Virus record (IMG/VR): IMGVR_UViG_3300007559_000026
Span: 1 to 22,360 of that record
Length of the DNA: 22,360 nt
Source of the DNA: a virus
Strand: one strand, 5' to 3'
In this document: positions 4,295 to 14,668 of the stretch, one piece after another
How the letters are laid out: the number at the start of each line of letters is the position of its first letter
Position numbering within the stretch: the first letter of the stretch is position 1
The notes under the pieces: model-generated
What the model was told of the DNA's origin: nothing
The model's database searches: none
What the model saw: only the letters and a program-made list of their open reading frames with translations
Translations under genes and position numbers: made by a program

Positions 4295-5632
4295 TTATTG
4301 ATTTTGCTCGAAAAATTTCTTAGCAATTTCAAAATGAGTACCTTGCGGACTACTATTTTCATCGTCTATGTTTGCCTTTCCTTCAATTACAATATGACCG
4401 TTATTAGTATCCATCTTAACATTATATGTCATGCCGTCTTGTCCGTATCTATTCTTCATAACGTGTAGACGGCCAGTACCTAAAACTTTATCTTCTTTTT
4501 GTCTTGATAACGATAAACATATATCAGCTACCATCATCTTATCGTAAGAACCTGCTGCTTTATCTCCTTCGATTACGTTATCTTTAGCCCCCATACGGTT
4601 AACCTGAGATGGTGTTAGTATCGGTATTTTTAATTCTTTAGCTAAGCTTTTAGTAGCAATAAATACATCATCAATTTCATCTTTACGTTCTGAGTATTTA
4701 CCTCTAGATGGTGCTTTTAAATAATCTACATAATCAATAATAATCAAGTCCGGTTTATGACCCATATCAATACACTTCTGTACGTGGCTCTTAATGTTAT
4801 TTACTGTCGCTGCTTTAGGAGCATATTCTTTTACTATCAGTCTACCTTTCAAGTTATTAATTTGCGTCTCTACTTCTTTTCTATGTCTATTAACCTCGTC
4901 AATAGAGTAACCTGTAAAGTAGCAGTCGAATCGCTTACCTACATACTCTTCCCCTAATTCCAAGGTATAATAATTAACTTTAAAGCCTAGTTTTACAGCA
5001 TGTGCTGCTGCGGCTACCATCGTCCAAGATTTACCACCACCTGGGTTACCAAATACGATAATCAAGTCTCCTGGTCCCCATCCTCCTTGTATAGTTTCGT
5101 TTAATAATGGCCATGGAGTAGGTATAGTAGGTCTATAGTCCGTTCTATATCGAGACTCAACATCCTTATCGTACTCATGTCCAATATTTTTATCCATCGC
5201 GGCTTTCATAGCCTTTTCAATCAGGTTACGTATACCTTCAAAATCACTTTGCTTTAATAAGTCTGCAGAAGACAAAATAGCTGCTTTCATTTCTTGATTT
5301 TTACAAAACGTAGTAAATTCTTCTTCTACGTAATCCAAATCATCTTGAGAAGCGGCATAAGAATTTCTTAACTCTTCTTTTACTGCTACCTGTAGTACTT
5401 CGTTTTCAATCTTTTGAAGTTCTACCTTTAGAACGTCCATCGTAACAGTAGTGTGGTACTTATCAAAGTATTTTAGAATCTGACCTATAATCCATTTATG
5501 TGTATCTGAATCAAAGTACTCTTCTCTTAATACGTCTCTTACTGTCAGTAAGTAGCCTTTATCTGTTAGTAAGGCGCCTATTACTTTAATCTGGAAGGGT
5601 TTTCCATATTGCGTTAACTTTTGCAATGTCAT
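4295..5632 (-). CDS. 41: Replicative DNA helicase, T4 gp41 / DnaB family
   Basis: The 445-residue protein is a hexameric RecA-fold helicase that should unwind DNA at the phage fork. An N-terminal helical domain (about 1-150) precedes the motor. Walker A is GNPGGGKS at 195-202 and Walker B ends at D300 (LIIIDYVDYL). The following TPSQVNR stretch and MKNRYGQDG near 400 match the H4 and arginine-finger regions of DnaB-type helicases. The length is close to T4 gp41 (475 residues). It begins five bases after the end of the 5' nuclease gene and is the last gene before the terminator at 4227-4264. No DnaG-type primase is in this window. The start is preceded by AAGTTAT with no Shine-Dalgarno sequence. 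Confidence 0.92.
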   Translation of the reverse strand: MTLQKLTQYGKPFQIKVIGALLTDKGYLLTVRDVLREEYFDSDTHKWIIGQILKYFDKYHTTVTMDVLKVELQKIENEVLQVAVKEELRNSYAASQDDLDYVEEEFTTFCKNQEMKAAILSSADLLKQSDFEGIRNLIEKAMKAAMDKNIGHEYDKDVESRYRTDYRPTIPTPWPLLNETIQGGWGPGDLIIVFGNPGGGKSWTMVAAAAHAVKLGFKVNYYTLELGEEYVGKRFDCYFTGYSIDEVNRHRKEVETQINNLKGRLIVKEYAPKAATVNNIKSHVQKCIDMGHKPDLIIIDYVDYLKAPSRGKYSERKDEIDDVFIATKSLAKELKIPILTPSQVNRMGAKDNVIEGDKAAGSYDKMMVADICLSLSRQKEDKVLGTGRLHVMKNRYGQDGMTYNVKMDTNNGHIVIEGKANIDDENSSPQGTHFEIAKKFFEQNQ

Positions 5633-5637
5633 ATAAC

Positions 5638-6660
5638 TTATTGTTTAAAAACCGTTAATGTTCTAAAATTCTCTAACCATCCTTCTGTGTTCTTGGTAAT
5701 GCCTTCGATTTTATCTATATCTAATAGATGTAGAAAGGCTCCTGTTTGTAGAGGTGGTACAGCTTCTTTTAATACATTTAATGTATGAAGAATTTCTTTA
5801 TCATCCAACTGTCCTTCATGTAAATTCATCAATTGGTAATTTGTTTTTACCCGATCCCAGTTGTGAATTATTTTAGCAAAAATAGACTTACCGTCTAGGT
5901 TCTGCTCACATACCGTATAGATATCTTCTAACTCGTAATTTGGATTTGTATTTAGTCCTGGGAATTCTTTGATTAAGGTCTTTAAACCTAATCCTTTAAC
6001 TCCGGCAAGGTTATCAGAGTTGTCACCTAATAATGCTTTTACAATATTATAGTTCTGAGGTAGTACTTCTAACTCTTCAATAATATTATCTTTTGTAAAA
6101 AGTGTTTTCTTTATAGGGGAGTATACTGAAATACATCCGTCTATTAATTGTAAGAAATCTTTATCAGAAGAAACAATAGTAACTTGTTTACCGGATGCTG
6201 ATGCTCCTAATGCTAAGTCTGCTATGATATCATCTGCCTCTAACTTCTCCATCGTTAAACTATGTAGAGGTAAACATTCAAGATAGTCTTTTAATCTATC
6301 TAACTGTGCAGATAGCGATTCATACTCTTCTTGCTTATTCTCATACATACCCCAGTTGGTGATTCTCGTATGCTGTCTTTGTGCTTTATAATTAGGATCT
6401 ATATTCTTTCTATTAGTAGAAGAACCTTTTCCATCAAATACACAAATAACTCTTGTAGGGTCGATTGTTCTTACTAGGAATCCTAGCGATCTTAAGAAGC
6501 CTACAAGACCACCGATATGGTGGCCTTGAGGGTTCATTGCTCTTAGGGTTGAGAAGCTACGAATAAATGTATTCATAGAATCTATAATCAATAAATGATC
6601 ATTTAACTCTCTAGGAGGGGACTCTTTAAGATTCTTTAAAATTTTACTATAGTCTGCCAT
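5638..6660 (-). CDS. 5'-3' exonuclease / flap endonuclease (T4 RNase H type)
   Basis: This 340-residue protein belongs to the FEN/PIN nuclease family, as do T4 RNase H and the 5' nuclease of DNA polymerase I, and should remove RNA primers and flaps from lagging-strand fragments. Acidic metal ligands are visible at D27 (LLIIDSMN), D76 (VFDGKGSS), E141/D143/D144 (EADDIIADLA), D166/D168 (SSDKDFLQL) and D213/D216 (GDNSDNLAGV), followed by the helix-hairpin-helix stretch GVKGLGLKT at 220-228. The ATG overlaps the uvsX stop codon (TAATG), implying coupled translation. Because the polymerase in this window has no 5' nuclease domain, this separate protein fills that job. The C-terminal 90 residues are less recognisable. 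Confidence 0.9.
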   Translation of the reverse strand: MADYSKILKNLKESPPRELNDHLLIIDSMNTFIRSFSTLRAMNPQGHHIGGLVGFLRSLGFLVRTIDPTRVICVFDGKGSSTNRKNIDPNYKAQRQHTRITNWGMYENKQEEYESLSAQLDRLKDYLECLPLHSLTMEKLEADDIIADLALGASASGKQVTIVSSDKDFLQLIDGCISVYSPIKKTLFTKDNIIEELEVLPQNYNIVKALLGDNSDNLAGVKGLGLKTLIKEFPGLNTNPNYELEDIYTVCEQNLDGKSIFAKIIHNWDRVKTNYQLMNLHEGQLDDKEILHTLNVLKEAVPPLQTGAFLHLLDIDKIEGITKNTEGWLENFRTLTVFKQ

Positions 6661-7733
6661 TAATCGTCTAGTAAGTTTGGTGAGATGTAATCTTCTTCCA
6701 TATCACCTTCTTCAACTAGACTAAAGTCAATAGATCCTAAAAGTTTTAACCAATGTTCTTTATGTTGGTCTTTATACTTATCGATTGCCTTCTTATCGTC
6801 GGCAATAAAACCGTGAGGGGTCATTACAATTCTTCCTCTTGTTTGAACTCCTTCAATATGGTTCTTTTCAATTTGTATGTTTGTTCTCTTAGCAAATTCT
6901 ACTTGAAGGCCGCTTTTTATGGCTTTAATTTTAGACGTACCTGGGTTAGTAATATTACCAAAAGTAACTACTAATGTCGCATCGTACCACATCGACATCC
7001 CGCCTTTATTTTGCAACTTAGGTTGAGACATCGGTGAGTCAGGTTTTTGAGTCCATACTTTGTTAATAGCTACTAACGTATTAGTGTACGGATTTCCTTC
7101 TTTTCGAGATAACAAGATCTTCTGATTCAAGTTATTTCCAAATTGAGTAGACATTGCTCCTGCATTCCATTCGTTATTATTCTTATTAGAACGTACTGAA
7201 AGATCACAAGGTACAGAGCCTACAGAATCCCAGAAGAAACATAAGTCGTGAGGTAGGTTTCCTTTAGCCTGTTCGTCTAAAAGATCTGCTATATAAGATG
7301 CTACATCTTCAATAGTATTTAACGTACCTCTATCTGAGTAAAGGAAGAAGCCTTCGTAGTCTGTTATTTCTCCAGTTGCTTCATTTACAACTTCCTCAAA
7401 CTGTAGTCCCATCTCTTTGGCATGTTGCCAAGACCATTTCATCTCCGTGATAATTAATACCGGTAAAATTCCTAACTTCTGAGCTGATACTGCTGCTTCT
7501 AATAGTGCCGTAGTCTTACCCGTATCACTATGACCTCTTAATAAGGTAATATGACCTGTCGGTATACCTGGCATAGAAGTAATATCTTGGTAGGCTTTTG
7601 ATAAAGGTATCCACCCTTGCTCTTTAAACTTTACCGAGGCATTTGCAAATCCCTTCTTCTTTTTGAAATTACCTAAATTAAATCCACTCTTTACTATAGC
7701 AGATGCTTTTTCTGCTGTTGCGCTTTTTGCCAT
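6660..7733 (-). CDS. uvsX: UvsX/RecA-type recombinase
   Basis: The 357-residue protein is a strand-exchange ATPase of the RecA/UvsX family, acting in recombination-dependent replication and repair on gp32-coated ssDNA. Walker A is G67-HSDTGK-T74 and Walker B ends in D169 (LCFFWDS). A lysine-rich N-terminus (KKKK at 24-27) and an acidic C-terminus (EEGDMEEDY) are typical features. T4 UvsX is slightly longer (about 390 residues). The RecA-type site for LexA cleavage is not a concern in phage proteins of this kind. The gene sits between gp32 and the 5' nuclease, an arrangement that keeps the DNA-handling proteins in one transcription unit. It could be called RecA-like, but the phage context favours UvsX. 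Confidence 0.9.
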   Translation of the reverse strand: MAKSATAEKASAIVKSGFNLGNFKKKKGFANASVKFKEQGWIPLSKAYQDITSMPGIPTGHITLLRGHSDTGKTTALLEAAVSAQKLGILPVLIITEMKWSWQHAKEMGLQFEEVVNEATGEITDYEGFFLYSDRGTLNTIEDVASYIADLLDEQAKGNLPHDLCFFWDSVGSVPCDLSVRSNKNNNEWNAGAMSTQFGNNLNQKILLSRKEGNPYTNTLVAINKVWTQKPDSPMSQPKLQNKGGMSMWYDATLVVTFGNITNPGTSKIKAIKSGLQVEFAKRTNIQIEKNHIEGVQTRGRIVMTPHGFIADDKKAIDKYKDQHKEHWLKLLGSIDFSLVEEGDMEEDYISPNLLDD

Positions 7734-7738
7734 TTATT

Positions 7739-8548
7739 TTATTCGTTAAAAAGGTCATCAAATTTACTTACCGCGTCTTTAACTCCTGGTGTTGAAGTCT
7801 CTAAAGAAAAGTCGGTTGAATGACTTCCTAGAGTCTCAGTTAAGGAATTAGATGCCTGAGGTGCAGGTGCTGAAGGAGTTTCGTCCTCTGCTGAACCTGG
7901 TGTTAAGTAATTTTGTAACTGCTTTTTAATGAACTCATAATCGTATTGAGTATGAATCTCAACAGGGTGTGGTTGGTTCTTTAACCATAAATCAACTTGC
8001 GCTGCATTATCTGATAGCGGAGTTTGTTTAGGTCTAATACGAACCGATGTGGTTGGGTACGGGTTACCTGGAGCAACTTCTACTACTAGGTCCCATCCAT
8101 TCATTACGTCTGTGTAATCTCCTACTTCTTCGTCTTGAGCTAACGCTAATAACGCTTTGTAGATTGTTACACCAAATCCCCATAAACGAACACCTTTATC
8201 TTCTTCACCTTTTACAATTACTGGTGCGAAAATACGTGTCTTGGGGTTAAGTTTACCGGCTAATGTCCAGTTATCCTTATCTGAAGTCTTCTTTAATTCC
8301 TTAATGAACTCTTCAATAGGATCTTGTTTTCCAAAATTAGATAAAGCGGCCATCGGGTACTTACCAATTCCATAGTGAAACTTCACTTCCTTAAACGGAA
8401 GATTAGGATCATACATAGAAGGTACAATACGAATGGTGCTTTTACCGTTTTCGGGTTTCCAGAAAGTAGCTGAATAGTCTACCTTCTCTCTTTCTTGTCC
8501 GCCGTTATTTAACGCAGACAGCTTTGCTTTGATTGCATCTAGATTCAT
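7739..8548 (-). CDS. 32: Single-stranded DNA-binding protein, T4 gp32 type
   Basis: This 269-residue protein resembles T4 gp32 in layout: a short N-terminal cooperativity segment (1-20), an OB-fold core rich in aromatics and basic residues (about 25-205), a linker rich in Pro, Ala and Ser (215-255) and an acidic tip ending FDDLFNE. It would coat ssDNA and recruit UvsX, helicase and polymerase. T4 gp32 binds zinc through one histidine and three cysteines, whereas this protein has no cysteine at all; a short NFGKQDP loop near 71-77 stands where the cysteine cluster is expected. The gene lies six bases ahead of uvsX. Its 47-base leader is A/T-rich with a small hairpin at its upstream end. Confidence 0.88.
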   Translation of the reverse strand: MNLDAIKAKLSALNNGGQEREKVDYSATFWKPENGKSTIRIVPSMYDPNLPFKEVKFHYGIGKYPMAALSNFGKQDPIEEFIKELKKTSDKDNWTLAGKLNPKTRIFAPVIVKGEEDKGVRLWGFGVTIYKALLALAQDEEVGDYTDVMNGWDLVVEVAPGNPYPTTSVRIRPKQTPLSDNAAQVDLWLKNQPHPVEIHTQYDYEFIKKQLQNYLTPGSAEDETPSAPAPQASNSLTETLGSHSTDFSLETSTPGVKDAVSKFDDLFNE

Positions 8549-8579: not shown

Positions 8580-8596
8580 AGATACTAAATATATCT
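8580..8596 (-). promoter_or_regulatory. Small hairpin in the A/T-rich leader of the gp32 gene
   Basis: Arms AGATA (8580-8584) and TATCT (8592-8596) flank a 7-base loop at the upstream end of the gap ahead of gp32, touching the stop codon of the preceding gene. T4 gp32 represses its own translation by binding an unstructured A/U-rich leader next to a folded RNA, so a similar role is possible. The stem is only 5 pairs of mostly A-T, so it may be chance. Confidence 0.2.
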
Positions 8597-9063
8597 CAAT
8601 TCTCCAACTCTACGATCTTAAATAATTTGGTATTTACTCTTTTTAATTCCGGACCCTTCGTTAATAGAATACAGTTTTTGTAGTCCGTCCAGTTAATTTT
8701 AAAAGTAGTATCTAATACTCCGTTATTAAGTTCCTTAATTAGTGTGTTGAGAGCGTTAATCGTATACAGGGTATTTGCTTCTTTCTTTCGATGTACTAAA
8801 ATAGTATTATCGATAAAATTAGAAACATTACCAAAATCTACATTATAGGTGCAGATATACTCGTCTTGACTTTTAGAATACAAAACGAATATTTTATTAT
8901 AGATAATTCTATATTTTTGTACTATATTTTCTAATGTCGCCTCTAGTTCCTCTCCTGTAGAGAAGGTGCAAAACAGCTTATTACTCATATCCTCAGTTAA
9001 ATATATTTGATCGATATCGTAATCGAATCGATGTTGAGACATAACATTTTCCATTGTGTACAT
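8596..9063 (-). CDS. Hypothetical protein in the replication module, between polymerase and gp32
   Basis: I do not recognise this 155-residue protein. It is acidic to neutral, rich in Asn, Thr, Ile and Leu, and looks soluble, with no signal peptide or membrane segment. The C-terminal half (about 95-150, containing NTLYTINALN and a TDYKNCILLT stretch) looks the more structured. The start is doubtful: the first ATG (9061-9063) overlaps the promoter-like octamer at 9063-9070, so translation more probably begins at Met4 (9052-9054) or Met8 (9040-9042). In T4 the small regulators and loaders gp33 and gp59 lie next to gene 32, so a replication- or transcription-linked role is possible, but nothing in the sequence shows it. 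It is 17 bases downstream of the polymerase gene's end. Confidence 0.85.
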   Translation of the reverse strand: MYTMENVMSQHRFDYDIDQIYLTEDMSNKLFCTFSTGEELEATLENIVQKYRIIYNKIFVLYSKSQDEYICTYNVDFGNVSNFIDNTILVHRKKEANTLYTINALNTLIKELNNGVLDTTFKINWTDYKNCILLTKGPELKRVNTKLFKIVELEN

Positions 9064-9080: not shown

Positions 9081-10403
9081 TTACAAAACCAGGTTTTCAG
9101 ATGTTTTTATTTTAACTGGGTATTTTTTATTTTCACTTAGTATCAAAGCTAATTCATTTATTATATGTTCTCCATCTTCTTTAGCATAATCAAATAATAT
9201 TGCGTCGTAAGTATAGAGAGCTATTTTTGTTTTCTTATTTCTAAGATACTTTAGCACTTCTTTTAAGATAAGAACATTTCTTGCAGTTTCCAACGATTGC
9301 ATGATATAATTCATAAGTTTCTGCGGATGCATTTCCTTAAGGTGCTTATTAAAAGGTTTGTTACTTATAGGAGTTCTTACTACCCCCTTAGAGAACTCAT
9401 CCCATAACCGGTCTATGTACTTAGTTAGTTTCACAAATATCTCTAAGTTCTTATATCCATCTGGTATTCTCCCGTATATAGCCTGAAAGTTAATTTGTTT
9501 TGCTTGAGCGTATTCTTCTTCTGTTAAGTCTTCTTTACCGAAGTAGTATTTACCTAAGGCTTTGTGGGCTGATTCACCTTCTATTTTAAAGTCGATTTGT
9601 TCTGATAATAGTCTTAAATGGTACCCGTCAAAGTCAAATTCAACAAAACAATCGTGCTGTGGTATAATAGCTTTTCTAAACTCTTCTCCTTTAGGTATAG
9701 CTGCGAAGTTTACACTATTAAAAGCGTTAGTAGGTCTTGACGTACTATTGTAAAGGTTGTAATACGTGTATGTAATATTATCCTTTATATTATACTTAGG
9801 TGTATTTGGTTTAAATAAGTCTATAAAAGGTTGGTATACTACTCGAAGTCCGTGTTGTTCTAGTAAGTAAAATACCTTAACAGCAACATCGTTATAGAAC
9901 TTAAAGGTATCTTCTTTAGGTTCTTCTATATACTTTTCTATTGCATCAAATACCCTTTCACTTTGTTCGTGTAATTTAGATAAAGGTATTATCTGATTAA
10001 TATTATCAAAGTCTTTAAATTTGTTATAGAACCAGTTTATTGTTGATATTTTACTTGGAAGTTCTATTTTATCGTAGTACCAGAATGCTCTCCATAAGTT
10101 TATATCTATTACATCTACAAGTGGAAAGTGGTAAAGCAGGTTTTTCTTATCTAATACATAAATCCTTTTGTATGCTTTTAAGAGGTCAAAAGCTTCTTCC
10201 TTACTAACATTTAAACCTTCATCATGGTTTATAGGTATAATGTAACCTCCTGAGTCATCTAGGGGTCTTATGTAGATTGCTACGGTTGTTGTAAATTTAG
10301 GATGGAAGTAATCATTAGATGAAATTACATCTACGTAGACATCAATATCCGGGTAACTACGGAGCCTATCAAGCTGCTGTTTATTTTCTACTATATAAAA
10401 CAT
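9081..10403 (-). CDS. Miniature family A DNA polymerase with degenerate exonuclease domain
   Basis: The 440-residue protein has the palm and fingers of DNA polymerase I. By eye alignment, motif A is D257-F-D-G-Y-H262-L-R264, motif B is K302-xxx-F306-xxx-Y310-G, Q369 matches Klenow Q849, and motif C is Y399-D400-A401, so both catalytic aspartates (705 and 882 in Klenow) remain. Unusual points: Klenow E710 is replaced by H262, R754 by Y298, and the HDE of motif C by YDA. The stretch between GLRVV (185-189) and the STSRPT region (220-225), which holds the thumb in Klenow, is only about 30 residues. The N-terminal 165 residues look like a 3'-5' exonuclease remnant, with D25 kept but its partner glutamate lost (DVI for DxE). 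There is no 5' nuclease domain; that is the separate gene at 5638-6660. A shorter or split polymerase is known from Rhodothermus phage RM378. Confidence 0.82.
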   Translation of the reverse strand: MFYIVENKQQLDRLRSYPDIDVYVDVISSNDYFHPKFTTTVAIYIRPLDDSGGYIIPINHDEGLNVSKEEAFDLLKAYKRIYVLDKKNLLYHFPLVDVIDINLWRAFWYYDKIELPSKISTINWFYNKFKDFDNINQIIPLSKLHEQSERVFDAIEKYIEEPKEDTFKFYNDVAVKVFYLLEQHGLRVVYQPFIDLFKPNTPKYNIKDNITYTYYNLYNSTSRPTNAFNSVNFAAIPKGEEFRKAIIPQHDCFVEFDFDGYHLRLLSEQIDFKIEGESAHKALGKYYFGKEDLTEEEYAQAKQINFQAIYGRIPDGYKNLEIFVKLTKYIDRLWDEFSKGVVRTPISNKPFNKHLKEMHPQKLMNYIMQSLETARNVLILKEVLKYLRNKKTKIALYTYDAILFDYAKEDGEHIINELALILSENKKYPVKIKTSENLVL

Positions 10404-11611: not shown

Positions 11612-14600
11612 TTATAGTGTTATATCTTTATCTTTTAATAATGTATAAGCGAAGGTGTTCCTCTTAGTCTTTTTCTGACTTTTTCCAACTAATTCCATTA
11701 GTCTTCTATGTTGAGATGCGTCAGCAAATACTTGACATCCTGCAGACCAGTTGTCAACAGTCTTAGTTGCAGCATCACCGTACTCACCTGAGTTATGTAG
11801 CTGCATACCGCCTCCATCTTCAAAAAGACCTGCAGTTGTTCCATGTGTTCCTCTAGGAGTAACTGCTAAATCAATCCAGTTATCTTTATATTCTTTATCT
11901 CTATATGATGTTTGACCTTTTAATGAAACTAACGCAGGATGGGGGCTTTTACTGTGTGAACTATGTTTACCTGTTGTGTATTGGTTTAAAAATTGTTTTT
12001 CAAACAAAGTTCCCGTTCCATTTGCGTTCCATGAATTCTTTCCGCTTTTTGCATCTTTTGCTTTTTGAGCTTTAAATTTTTCATTCTCACCTAAAGTCCA
12101 TCCTGCTCCAGGTACTGTAGTAGCAGGGTAGCTTTCTGCAAACTGTTGTCCATTTTCAACCCAAGCTACAATTACTATATCTTTAAATTTATTAGTAATC
12201 GGATGTAACACTCCTCTACCTGTAGGATTAGAAGGAATCTGTCCTGAAGTATTTCTTACTCCTACTATATTTAATTCTAACTCACCCGCAAACCAAGTAT
12301 ACCCTTTTTTCTGAACAGCTGCCATTACGTTAGCGTATTTAACGTTTTTACCTAAAGCAGTTTGATTTTGGAGCTTATCTGTTCCACCTTCTGTAGATGG
12401 TGATCCATCTTCGTTTGCAGGAGGTTGTTCTTGTTTAACAACAGAACCTGCTGTTGCAGAACCAGCACCAGATAATAGTGTAGAAGATCCTCCTGATAGT
12501 TTTGTAAGGTTGTACATTAAGGCACCTACTTCAGTTGTCCATCCATTATCCCCTACCGTATGGTCTACTTTTATAACTATGAATCCAATAGAGCCGTTAC
12601 CGTAGACCTGTGGGAGTATTTTAGATGTATTCTCAGATAGCTTAAAAGTTTCTCCTATTTTAAAACCACCGATTCCATGTAATTTAAAAGATAACTCTAC
12701 CGGTATAGTACCCGGTGGTGGTATATTTTCTGCTTGGCATGTAGCGAGAGCAAATTTTGACTGATAGGTCTGGTGTCCGGATAAAAGTCCTTTAAATAAA
12801 TCTGGGTCATATTGTTGATCTGTAAACAACTCTGTTCCGTTAAATTTTTCAAATGCTTCTACCACTCTATCTCTCCACTCCCCAAAAGTTTTTAAATCTT
12901 CTTTAGCTTTTGCCTCTGCAGCGGCTGCTGCTGCTGCTTTATCTTTTGCTGCTTGTTGGAGTTCTTGTGGTGTTTGAGGACCAGGGTCTTCTTTAATAGG
13001 GAAAACACGATCATAATGTCCTCTATTCCATAGAAGCATTTCCTTAACGTCTTGTTTAGTGCCGGTACCGGATGCTTGGGCAGCAATAGAAATTTGGCTT
13101 GCTAATTTATTAGTTATCTTTGACTCTGTTTTAAAGTCATAAGCAAAAGAACCTAAACCGACTAAGTCTAACTCTGTTACTTGATCTTTTTCACTTGCTG
13201 GTGGTATTTTACATTTTCTATCTACAATCGACCATTCGTTTAGTTCTTCGTCGTAATCTAAATCTAATTCATTAATACCGCCTAATGCTTCATTTACTCC
13301 TCCTAGTATTGCTTTAAAGATATCTAATAACCCTGGTTCATTTTCTGATTCTTGATCACTATCGTATATTTCATCTAATTTTTCATAAAGGTACATATTA
13401 GATACACATATACTCAATACATCATCAGAAGGAAGATTAGCTCCACTGCCTGCAAAGTAGGTTGTTAGTTTTTGATGTAACAATTTTTCAGCAGGTTTTG
13501 ATTCAAATAACCCATTAGTAGCGGCTACGTTATTTGGTAAGACGCAAACAAACGGATTAATACTACCGTGTTGCTTATGTGTAAAATACTTATTTTTTTG
13601 TTTTGTATTTATGGTAAATGATCTCTGTCCTTTTCCTTCATGCATAATACTCGCTGAGTTTATCACACTACAGACTGTACGTAGAGACATGTAAATGAAT
13701 ACCGTATTTTTATCAAAAAAGCTATCAGGTTGTTTAATATCAAATCCAGGAGCACACCATACCTCTAATTCACTTGGGGTCAATACTCCCGCAAAACCAG
13801 GTGTGGAATTTTTTAGAGCGTCTACACACGCGTCTCCGGCGAACTCTCCTTCTTGGCTGTTTAGTTCTAACCTTTTACTAAAGTAGTGTAATGGGCTTTT
13901 TCTTTCTGATTTATCAAGGTTTCCTTTTTGTAAAGCTTCAACATCTTTTTCTGTAAAGCCCGGATCGAAAGAAGATTTAATAGACTCTATAACTTCACCT
14001 TTTGAAATTAAGTATACGGTTGTATCATAAGAGCCGTCTGCATTAAACGACCAACTAAAGTTTTTACATATCGCAAGCATACCGTCGTAATTGTACCCGG
14101 AGGCTTCTCGGCATTTTGTTATTGCGTCTTGTATAGATTTATAGGTAGCTCCTGAAGAAAGAAATGCTTCTTTAGCAGCAGTCTGTTTTACTGTTAGGGT
14201 CGAACCTTCCTCTTTACTGTAAACTGAATGTCCCCACTCTAATAAAAAACTAAAACCGGGTCGGCAATATAAGTCATAAATTATATTGAAATCATCTCTA
14301 TTAAAAGCTTTTATAGTAACCTCTACATCTCGTAAAGCACCAAAAGTACCTTTTGTTTTAATCTGCACTCCGGTAATTCCTGGTCTAGGTGTAAACCCTC
14401 TACCGTCTTCGCTTTTTGCATGATAACCCTTAGGTGTATTGGGGTAATCATCTTTAAAAGCTAAACCACCGTCGAGATGCCAAGGACTTGTTAAATCGGT
14501 AGGGTAGCCGCTACCTTCTACACTAGAATATAGGCTGATAAAAGCACTATTGCCGTGCAGTAAAGAATTACCTCCTTCTCCGAAATTTTTGGATTTTAAA

Positions 14601-14668
14601 AGTGCACTTCTAACTTTAAATTGTGCGTCTACTTTTTTACTTATACTTTGTCCTAAAAACTGTCCCAT
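11612..14668 (-). CDS. Baseplate hub protein with C-terminal YkuD-like (L,D-transpeptidase-type) domain
   Basis: This 1018-residue protein sits where T4-like phages place their baseplate hub genes. The N-terminal half (about 95-450) looks beta-rich, with VEVTIKAF and FNIIYDLYCRPGFSFLLEWG (132-146 region) typical of hub/tail-tube-like domains. An alanine/lysine-rich helix at 570-592 links to a second beta-rich segment (600-725), then a Pro/Ser/Glu linker (740-768). The last 250 residues form a separate domain with NIVGVRN (800-806), ATTVPGAGW (849-857), LHNSGEYG with H958, and NWSAGCQVF with C978. The H...SxGC pattern matches YkuD-type cysteine enzymes that act on peptidoglycan stem peptides. 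T4 hub protein gp5 carries a lysozyme for the same purpose of opening the wall. The ATG overlaps the gp53 stop (TAATG). The hub role rests on position and size; the C-terminal domain call rests on the motif. Confidence 0.75.
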   Translation of the reverse strand: MGQFLGQSISKKVDAQFKVRSALLKSKNFGEGGNSLLHGNSAFISLYSSVEGSGYPTDLTSPWHLDGGLAFKDDYPNTPKGYHAKSEDGRGFTPRPGITGVQIKTKGTFGALRDVEVTIKAFNRDDFNIIYDLYCRPGFSFLLEWGHSVYSKEEGSTLTVKQTAAKEAFLSSGATYKSIQDAITKCREASGYNYDGMLAICKNFSWSFNADGSYDTTVYLISKGEVIESIKSSFDPGFTEKDVEALQKGNLDKSERKSPLHYFSKRLELNSQEGEFAGDACVDALKNSTPGFAGVLTPSELEVWCAPGFDIKQPDSFFDKNTVFIYMSLRTVCSVINSASIMHEGKGQRSFTINTKQKNKYFTHKQHGSINPFVCVLPNNVAATNGLFESKPAEKLLHQKLTTYFAGSGANLPSDDVLSICVSNMYLYEKLDEIYDSDQESENEPGLLDIFKAILGGVNEALGGINELDLDYDEELNEWSIVDRKCKIPPASEKDQVTELDLVGLGSFAYDFKTESKITNKLASQISIAAQASGTGTKQDVKEMLLWNRGHYDRVFPIKEDPGPQTPQELQQAAKDKAAAAAAAEAKAKEDLKTFGEWRDRVVEAFEKFNGTELFTDQQYDPDLFKGLLSGHQTYQSKFALATCQAENIPPPGTIPVELSFKLHGIGGFKIGETFKLSENTSKILPQVYGNGSIGFIVIKVDHTVGDNGWTTEVGALMYNLTKLSGGSSTLLSGAGSATAGSVVKQEQPPANEDGSPSTEGGTDKLQNQTALGKNVKYANVMAAVQKKGYTWFAGELELNIVGVRNTSGQIPSNPTGRGVLHPITNKFKDIVIVAWVENGQQFAESYPATTVPGAGWTLGENEKFKAQKAKDAKSGKNSWNANGTGTLFEKQFLNQYTTGKHSSHSKSPHPALVSLKGQTSYRDKEYKDNWIDLAVTPRGTHGTTAGLFEDGGGMQLHNSGEYGDAATKTVDNWSAGCQVFADASQHRRLMELVGKSQKKTKRNTFAYTLLKDKDITL

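Follow-up and report, generated by a model that had tools for sequence, protein, structure and literature searches.

An open reading frame at positions 9081 to 10403 of the window (the whole 22,360-nucleotide stretch of viral DNA analysed here, IMG/VR record IMGVR_UViG_3300007559_000026) encodes a protein that belongs to divPolA1, a side branch of the family A DNA polymerases specific to phages. We estimate a probability of about 55% that divPolA1 is a DNA-synthesis enzyme of the replication and recombination module, working on short stretches of DNA together with a single-strand DNA binding protein (SSB) and with X155, a 155-amino-acid protein encoded beside it. Family A polymerases are the textbook hands of enzymology, built of palm, fingers and thumb. 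divPolA1 serves as a natural test of the thumb's purpose, in that it is widespread, keeps its catalytic residues, is under helicase-like selection and has dropped both thumb and proofreading. The gene and its parts are located in the window as follows:

9081..10403, minus strand: predicted divPolA1, a 440-amino-acid thumbless, exonuclease-dead family A polymerase (open reading frame with an ATG start; homology to immuto gp001)
10044..10403, minus strand: exonuclease-like remnant, residues 1-120, with the ExoI DxE lost (alignments; strands and helices in the AF2 model)
9735..9852, minus strand: predicted site of the missing thumb, residues ~185-223 (profile alignment and residue counts; low model confidence at 213-237)
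9603..9651, minus strand: motif A, residues ~252-267, FVEFDFDGYHLRLLSE, with the catalytic D257 and with H262 replacing E710 (each in 144/144 members with a letter at the column)
9471..9519, minus strand: motif B (O helix), residues ~296-311, EEYAQAKQINFQAIYG, with K302, F306 and Y310 (invariant, 145/145)
9186..9216, minus strand: motif C, residues ~397-406, YTYDAILFDY, with Y399 and the catalytic D400 (invariant, 145/145)

divPolA1 was described from sequence in 2024 from 14 phages, including Flavobacterium phage immuto, as a group with a truncated thumb, an inactivated exonuclease, retained palm residues and replication genes downstream; the same genomes encode a regular polymerase as well, belonging to family A, B or C (Virol J 2024;21:200, PMC11348598). 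No experimental work on divPolA1 was found in the literature searched. The window protein is 57.6% identical to immuto gp001, its closest cultured relative, over residues 1-440 (E 1e-156). It has the truncated thumb, the replaced 3'-5' exonuclease residues and the palm catalytic residues of the group, and the conserved replication genes lie downstream in the window and in its relatives; every testable feature agrees with divPolA1 of immuto and relatives, and no difference was found. Our analysis adds more than 500 IMG/VR relatives, residue statistics over 145 sequences (with invariant E710-to-H and H881-to-Y replacements) and the linkage to X155, a protein left undiscussed in the text of the 2024 paper (PMC11348598).

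The original prediction, of a miniature family A polymerase with motifs A, B and C of palm and fingers, agrees with what database and fold searches returned for this minus-strand, 440-residue frame. The Pfam family DNA_pol_A (PF00476) matches residues 231-316 with an E of 1.1e-7, just below its curated cut-off, and Klenow structures are weak sequence matches (E 0.0036-0.0042). Pol I/Klenow is the top-ranked fold for the whole AF2 model, with a Foldseek E of 2.7e-14 to E. coli Pol I and a VIA Z of 18.7 over 271 residues (rmsd 4.0). The model has a mean pLDDT of 69.9 and a pTM of 0.53, and it is poor at residues 107-138, 162-171 and 213-237; because of this middling quality the thumb argument was built on alignment and residue counts, and whole-chain superpositions (rmsd ~15) were excluded from it. 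Global hhalign comparison of the divPolA1 family with the full-size PolA family gave an E of 0.43 and the local one was badly placed in the N-part, and a HMMER profile alignment was used in their place. The miniature, thumbless and exonuclease-dead traits are common to 145 distinct full-length sequences, and at least 581 relatives occur among the 600 candidate stretches listed in IMG/VR. Compared with four relatives, the gene has a dN/dS of 0.03-0.07, as low as UvsX, FEN and DnaB alongside. The divPolA1 gene is under strong purifying selection and functionally constrained; hundreds of relatives together with such ratios far exceed what a chance origin of the pattern could yield.

The interval from G185 to R223 of the window protein is a gap of 37 residues. 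Measured from the conserved G (of E..NG or E..HG) to the R668 equivalent, the same interval is 37 residues in 107 of the 145 members and 19-39 over all 145. Klenow has 123 residues here and T7 has 197, and the full-size PolA of divPolA1-carrying phages has 213-221. A family profile of 15 members fits E. coli Pol I as two collinear pieces, ~520-560 and ~638-795. The alignment skips Pol I residues ~561-637 (~77 residues), which are the thumb helices by the domain borders of Klenow, and no segment of thumb size is inserted elsewhere in the divPolA1 sequence. As judged from these alignments, the thumb helices are lost in divPolA1, in line with the predicted reduction to about 30 residues from more than 100 in Klenow. 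The proposed structural comparison with Klenow succeeded as to the overall fold, with Pol I ranking first, but around the thumb site the model is too uncertain to show alone whether another segment acts as a thumb.

The claim that an exonuclease remnant persists in the N-part with its DxE gone was likewise confirmed by alignment. The column aligned with E357, the ExoI glutamate, is I or V wherever a member has a residue there, and H34, H60 and E62 are conserved in most members instead of the DxE; ExoII and ExoIII were assessed by eye, from the alignment only. The N-part retains its fold-like form, with its proofreading centre lost.

Motif A reads VEFDFDGYHLRL, in which D257 corresponds to Klenow D705 and H262 stands at the position of E710. 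Motif B reads YAQAKQINFQAIYG, with K302, F306 and Y310 equivalent to K758, F762 and Y766 and with Y298 at the position of R754; in motif C (YTYDA) D400 is D882, and HDE is here YDA. Over the 145 members the equivalents of D705, D882, K758, F762, Y766, R668, R682, N845 and Q849 show little or no variation, every member has Tyr for H881, and residue 401, the E883 equivalent, is A or S. The synthesis centre, with its residues for nucleotidyl transfer and for holding the primer end and incoming nucleotide, is kept. E710 and E883 matter in Klenow, so with E710 changed to H and E883 to A or S the activity of divPolA1 may be weak or altered. All three substitutions that had been singled out from the window sequence are real, with different reach: E710 to H262 is a true family signature; R754 to Y298 holds for the window protein but marks no family, the position being variable (Y 114, E 15, Q 6 and R 2 of 145); and HDE to YDA is present, its H881-to-Y part invariant, but HDE itself is not universal, since even the companion full-size PolA carries HDQ.

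These same changes (E710, R754, HDE) could be read as the marks of a former polymerase that is now a structural DNA-binding subunit. Essentially all 145 members retain both aspartates and the equivalents of K758, F762, Y766, R668, N845 and Q849, however, and an enzyme that had lost its activity should have shed some of these, which makes this reading highly improbable.

A second reading concerns the choice of sugar. E710 is the steric gate residue, and an invariant His (144/144) in place of the Glu of family A DNA polymerases might signal ribonucleotide incorporation or priming; RNA polymerase activity has been raised for the thumb-lacking divPolA2 (PMC11348598). We consider altered sugar choice decidedly unlikely, as F762 and Y766 are those of DNA polymerases. 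His is also bulky and does not open the steric gate as Gly would. Moreover, a separate DnaG-like primase is annotated in immuto and was found in the five largest other records (G004, G005, G013, Microcystis phage Mel-JY01 and LR756508), so that the priming gap that divPolA1 might fill is absent; in partial contigs no DnaG-like primase was found. Replacement of the primase by divPolA1, considered as a separate candidate, is weakened by the same six primases.

Compared with known enzymes, divPolA1 shares the palm and fingers order of Klenow and bacterial DNA polymerase I, its best fold match. It differs from Klenow in the ~77 missing thumb residues, the dead exonuclease centre and the replacement of E710, H881 and E883, and from Pol I in having no fused 5'-nuclease domain, a FEN gene lying three genes downstream instead. 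divPolA2 of barbaviruses is likewise a second family A polymerase without thumb or exonuclease beside a regular one, but its description gives it a globular N-terminal domain that is unrelated and a gene context that varies, whereas divPolA1 has an N-part resembling an exonuclease and its context is fixed (PMC11348598). TV-Pol, which occurs in mobile elements and viruses, is likewise a small polymerase resembling family A (Biol Direct 2008, PMC2579912), and its description includes a thumb module of two helices and fusions to a D5 helicase (PMC2579912). Both the two thumb helices and the D5 helicase link are absent in divPolA1, whose nearby helicase is of the DnaB type, and identity with TV-Pol was rejected on these two grounds.

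Downstream of the polymerase, the window carries the following genes:

8596..9063, minus strand: X155, the 155-amino-acid partner, 17 bp downstream of divPolA1 (linkage, AF2 and dN/dS)
7739..8548, minus strand: gp32-like single-strand DNA binding protein (PF08804, E 2.9e-12)
6660..7733, minus strand: UvsX/RecA-like recombinase (phrog_97, E 5e-13; PF00154 weak)
5638..6660, minus strand: FEN-type 5'-3' exonuclease (PF02739, E 2.5e-33)
4295..5632, minus strand: DnaB/gp41-type replicative helicase (phrog_19, E 1.8e-76)

The order of tail genes, divPolA1, X155, SSB, UvsX, FEN and DnaB is fixed and is held across clades at 27-40% identity, and the module from SSB to DnaB stands beside divPolA1 in nearly every locus. 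Such recombination and flap-processing neighbours would suit a polymerase of translesion synthesis or repair that acts on damaged DNA or on DNA ends, as would dead proofreading and a reduced grip, which are typical of bypass polymerases. Against this, a lesion-specific insert of the Pol theta/nu kind is not visible in divPolA1, and the role suggested by a fixed order and helicase-level purifying selection across hundreds of phages is a core one, not one under stress; we consider a repair specialist quite unlikely.

The linkage of X155 to divPolA1 is strict. X155 usually lies -64 to +26 bp from divPolA1, though in a minority of loci, most of them from the marine clade, it is 0.8-2.1 kb downstream, and it is on the same strand in all 160 divPolA1 loci (some of them overlapping extracts) where both are detectable. 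In divPolA1 loci lacking X155 the sequence stops short of its expected place or part-way through it, and in three loci the contig end cuts X155. In the reverse search, divPolA1 was present in 69 of 70 newly fetched X155 loci, the remaining locus being truncated 415 bp upstream, and all six phage records with either gene have both, X155 having been searched even to an E of 10. X155 is thus never seen apart from divPolA1 except at contig ends. It is better conserved than divPolA1, at 97% identity to its counterpart in the related locus L018 versus 89% for divPolA1, and its dN/dS is 0.02-0.06.

The AF2 model of X155 is confident (mean pLDDT 82.7). No match was found among PDB sequences at E up to 10 or, for the window copy, in PHROG at E up to 0.01; the fold has no recognisable match among solved structures (best Foldseek PDB E 0.083; best VIA Z 6.7), and the sole strong match to a viral model is an uncharacterised phage protein. 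X155 weakly resembles the origin-binding domain of the SV40 T antigen (Z 5.8 over 97 residues, rmsd 4.2), but this is within noise and was rejected. With no recognisable fold match, any role for X155 is guessed from its linkage; the strictness of that linkage makes it a concrete candidate for whatever replaces the thumb. We tentatively raise, as a possibility to which we give a low probability, that divPolA1 and X155 are obligate subunits of one polymerase, X155 supplying the grip on DNA as a thumb or clamp in trans. X155 also holds an invariant HR.K ... LYTIN.LN stretch, and its relatives are known only within the divPolA1-X155 gene pair.

The window record is a 22-kb fragment, too short to reach a second polymerase gene, and the companion is known from relatives. 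In cultured phage immuto, a 777-amino-acid family A polymerase with a PF01612 exonuclease domain and a polymerase domain lies 37 kb from divPolA1, beside GroEL. Within the window's own clade, a family A polymerase of ~780 amino acids is present in all six contigs of at least 78 kb that were checked, including a 101-kb contig whose divPolA1 is 89% identical to that of the window. The exonuclease motifs DTE, N..SFD and YA..D are present in seven aligned copies of full-size PolA, as is a full, long thumb. The companion is of family B in five records (marine clade, Mel-JY01, a 484-kb uncultured phage and two more contigs), and no family C polymerase (PF07733) was found in the five records searched. 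The large records examined pair divPolA1 with a full-size, exonuclease-bearing family A polymerase or with one of family B.

On this evidence divPolA1 is probably not the main replicase of the phage, since a second, full-size polymerase accompanies it in the large records of relatives. The original prediction had left two branches, a main replicase relying on other proteins for grip and fidelity, or a specialised polymerase; the second fares better, and the first was not supported, given a full-size PolA in immuto and in all six clade contigs. The second polymerase that it proposed to look for elsewhere in the genome was found in relatives, but in the window's clade this is a family A enzyme and not a gp43. 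That divPolA1 might nevertheless be the main replicase, with thumb and proofreading replaced by other replisome proteins and the regular polymerase as an accessory, draws on its place in the SSB, UvsX, FEN and DnaB module in nearly every locus and on the location of the regular polymerase elsewhere (beside GroEL in immuto), where it can be of family A or B. The 2024 authors also considered the context of divPolA1 more replication-like than that of the regular polymerases, whose function they found less obvious on context grounds (PMC11348598). We consider this arrangement unlikely: a companion was found in every large record examined, the aligned full-size copies having exonuclease motifs and a thumb, in one locus (L040) the full PolA lies within the same cluster, downstream of DnaB, and a 160-kb genome copied without thumb or proofreading would be unusual.

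We therefore favour a specialised DNA-synthesis enzyme of the module, a reading supported by the catalytic residues invariant over 145 members, the low dN/dS, the fixed gene order, the X155 linkage, the full-size companion and the DnaG-like primase. We infer its activity, partner binding and biological role as follows. divPolA1 would be an active DNA polymerase of low processivity and without proofreading, synthesising short stretches at primer ends presented inside the SSB-UvsX-FEN-DnaB module. Its tasks might include the extension of recombination joints, or gap filling once FEN has removed primers. Grip would come from X155, SSB or other module proteins instead of a thumb, and bulk copying would be left to the regular polymerase. 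Against this division, the replication-like context described in 2024 would also fit a larger share in replication for divPolA1. Genomes with two family A polymerases open this division of labour to study in a cultured phage (Immutovirus).

Several other observations were made in the window and its relatives. In the marine clade (L056, 11052-12779; also L074 and L066), an open reading frame of 575-628 amino acids without a Pfam match lies between divPolA1 and X155. The window tail protein at 11612-14668 (1018 amino acids, no Pfam match) ends in NWSAGCQVF, which resembles an L,D-transpeptidase-type or peptidase motif. At 218-1468, a single open reading frame combines two halves, one a 2OG-Fe(II) oxygenase and the other matching phage families labelled ferrochelatase; the latter is probably a second, mislabelled oxygenase-like domain. 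Near the full-size PolA of immuto (NC_055915.1, locus L081, ~18.6-37 kb), annotations for QueC, QueD, QueE, QueF, FolE and DpdA suggest 7-deazaguanine modification of DNA.
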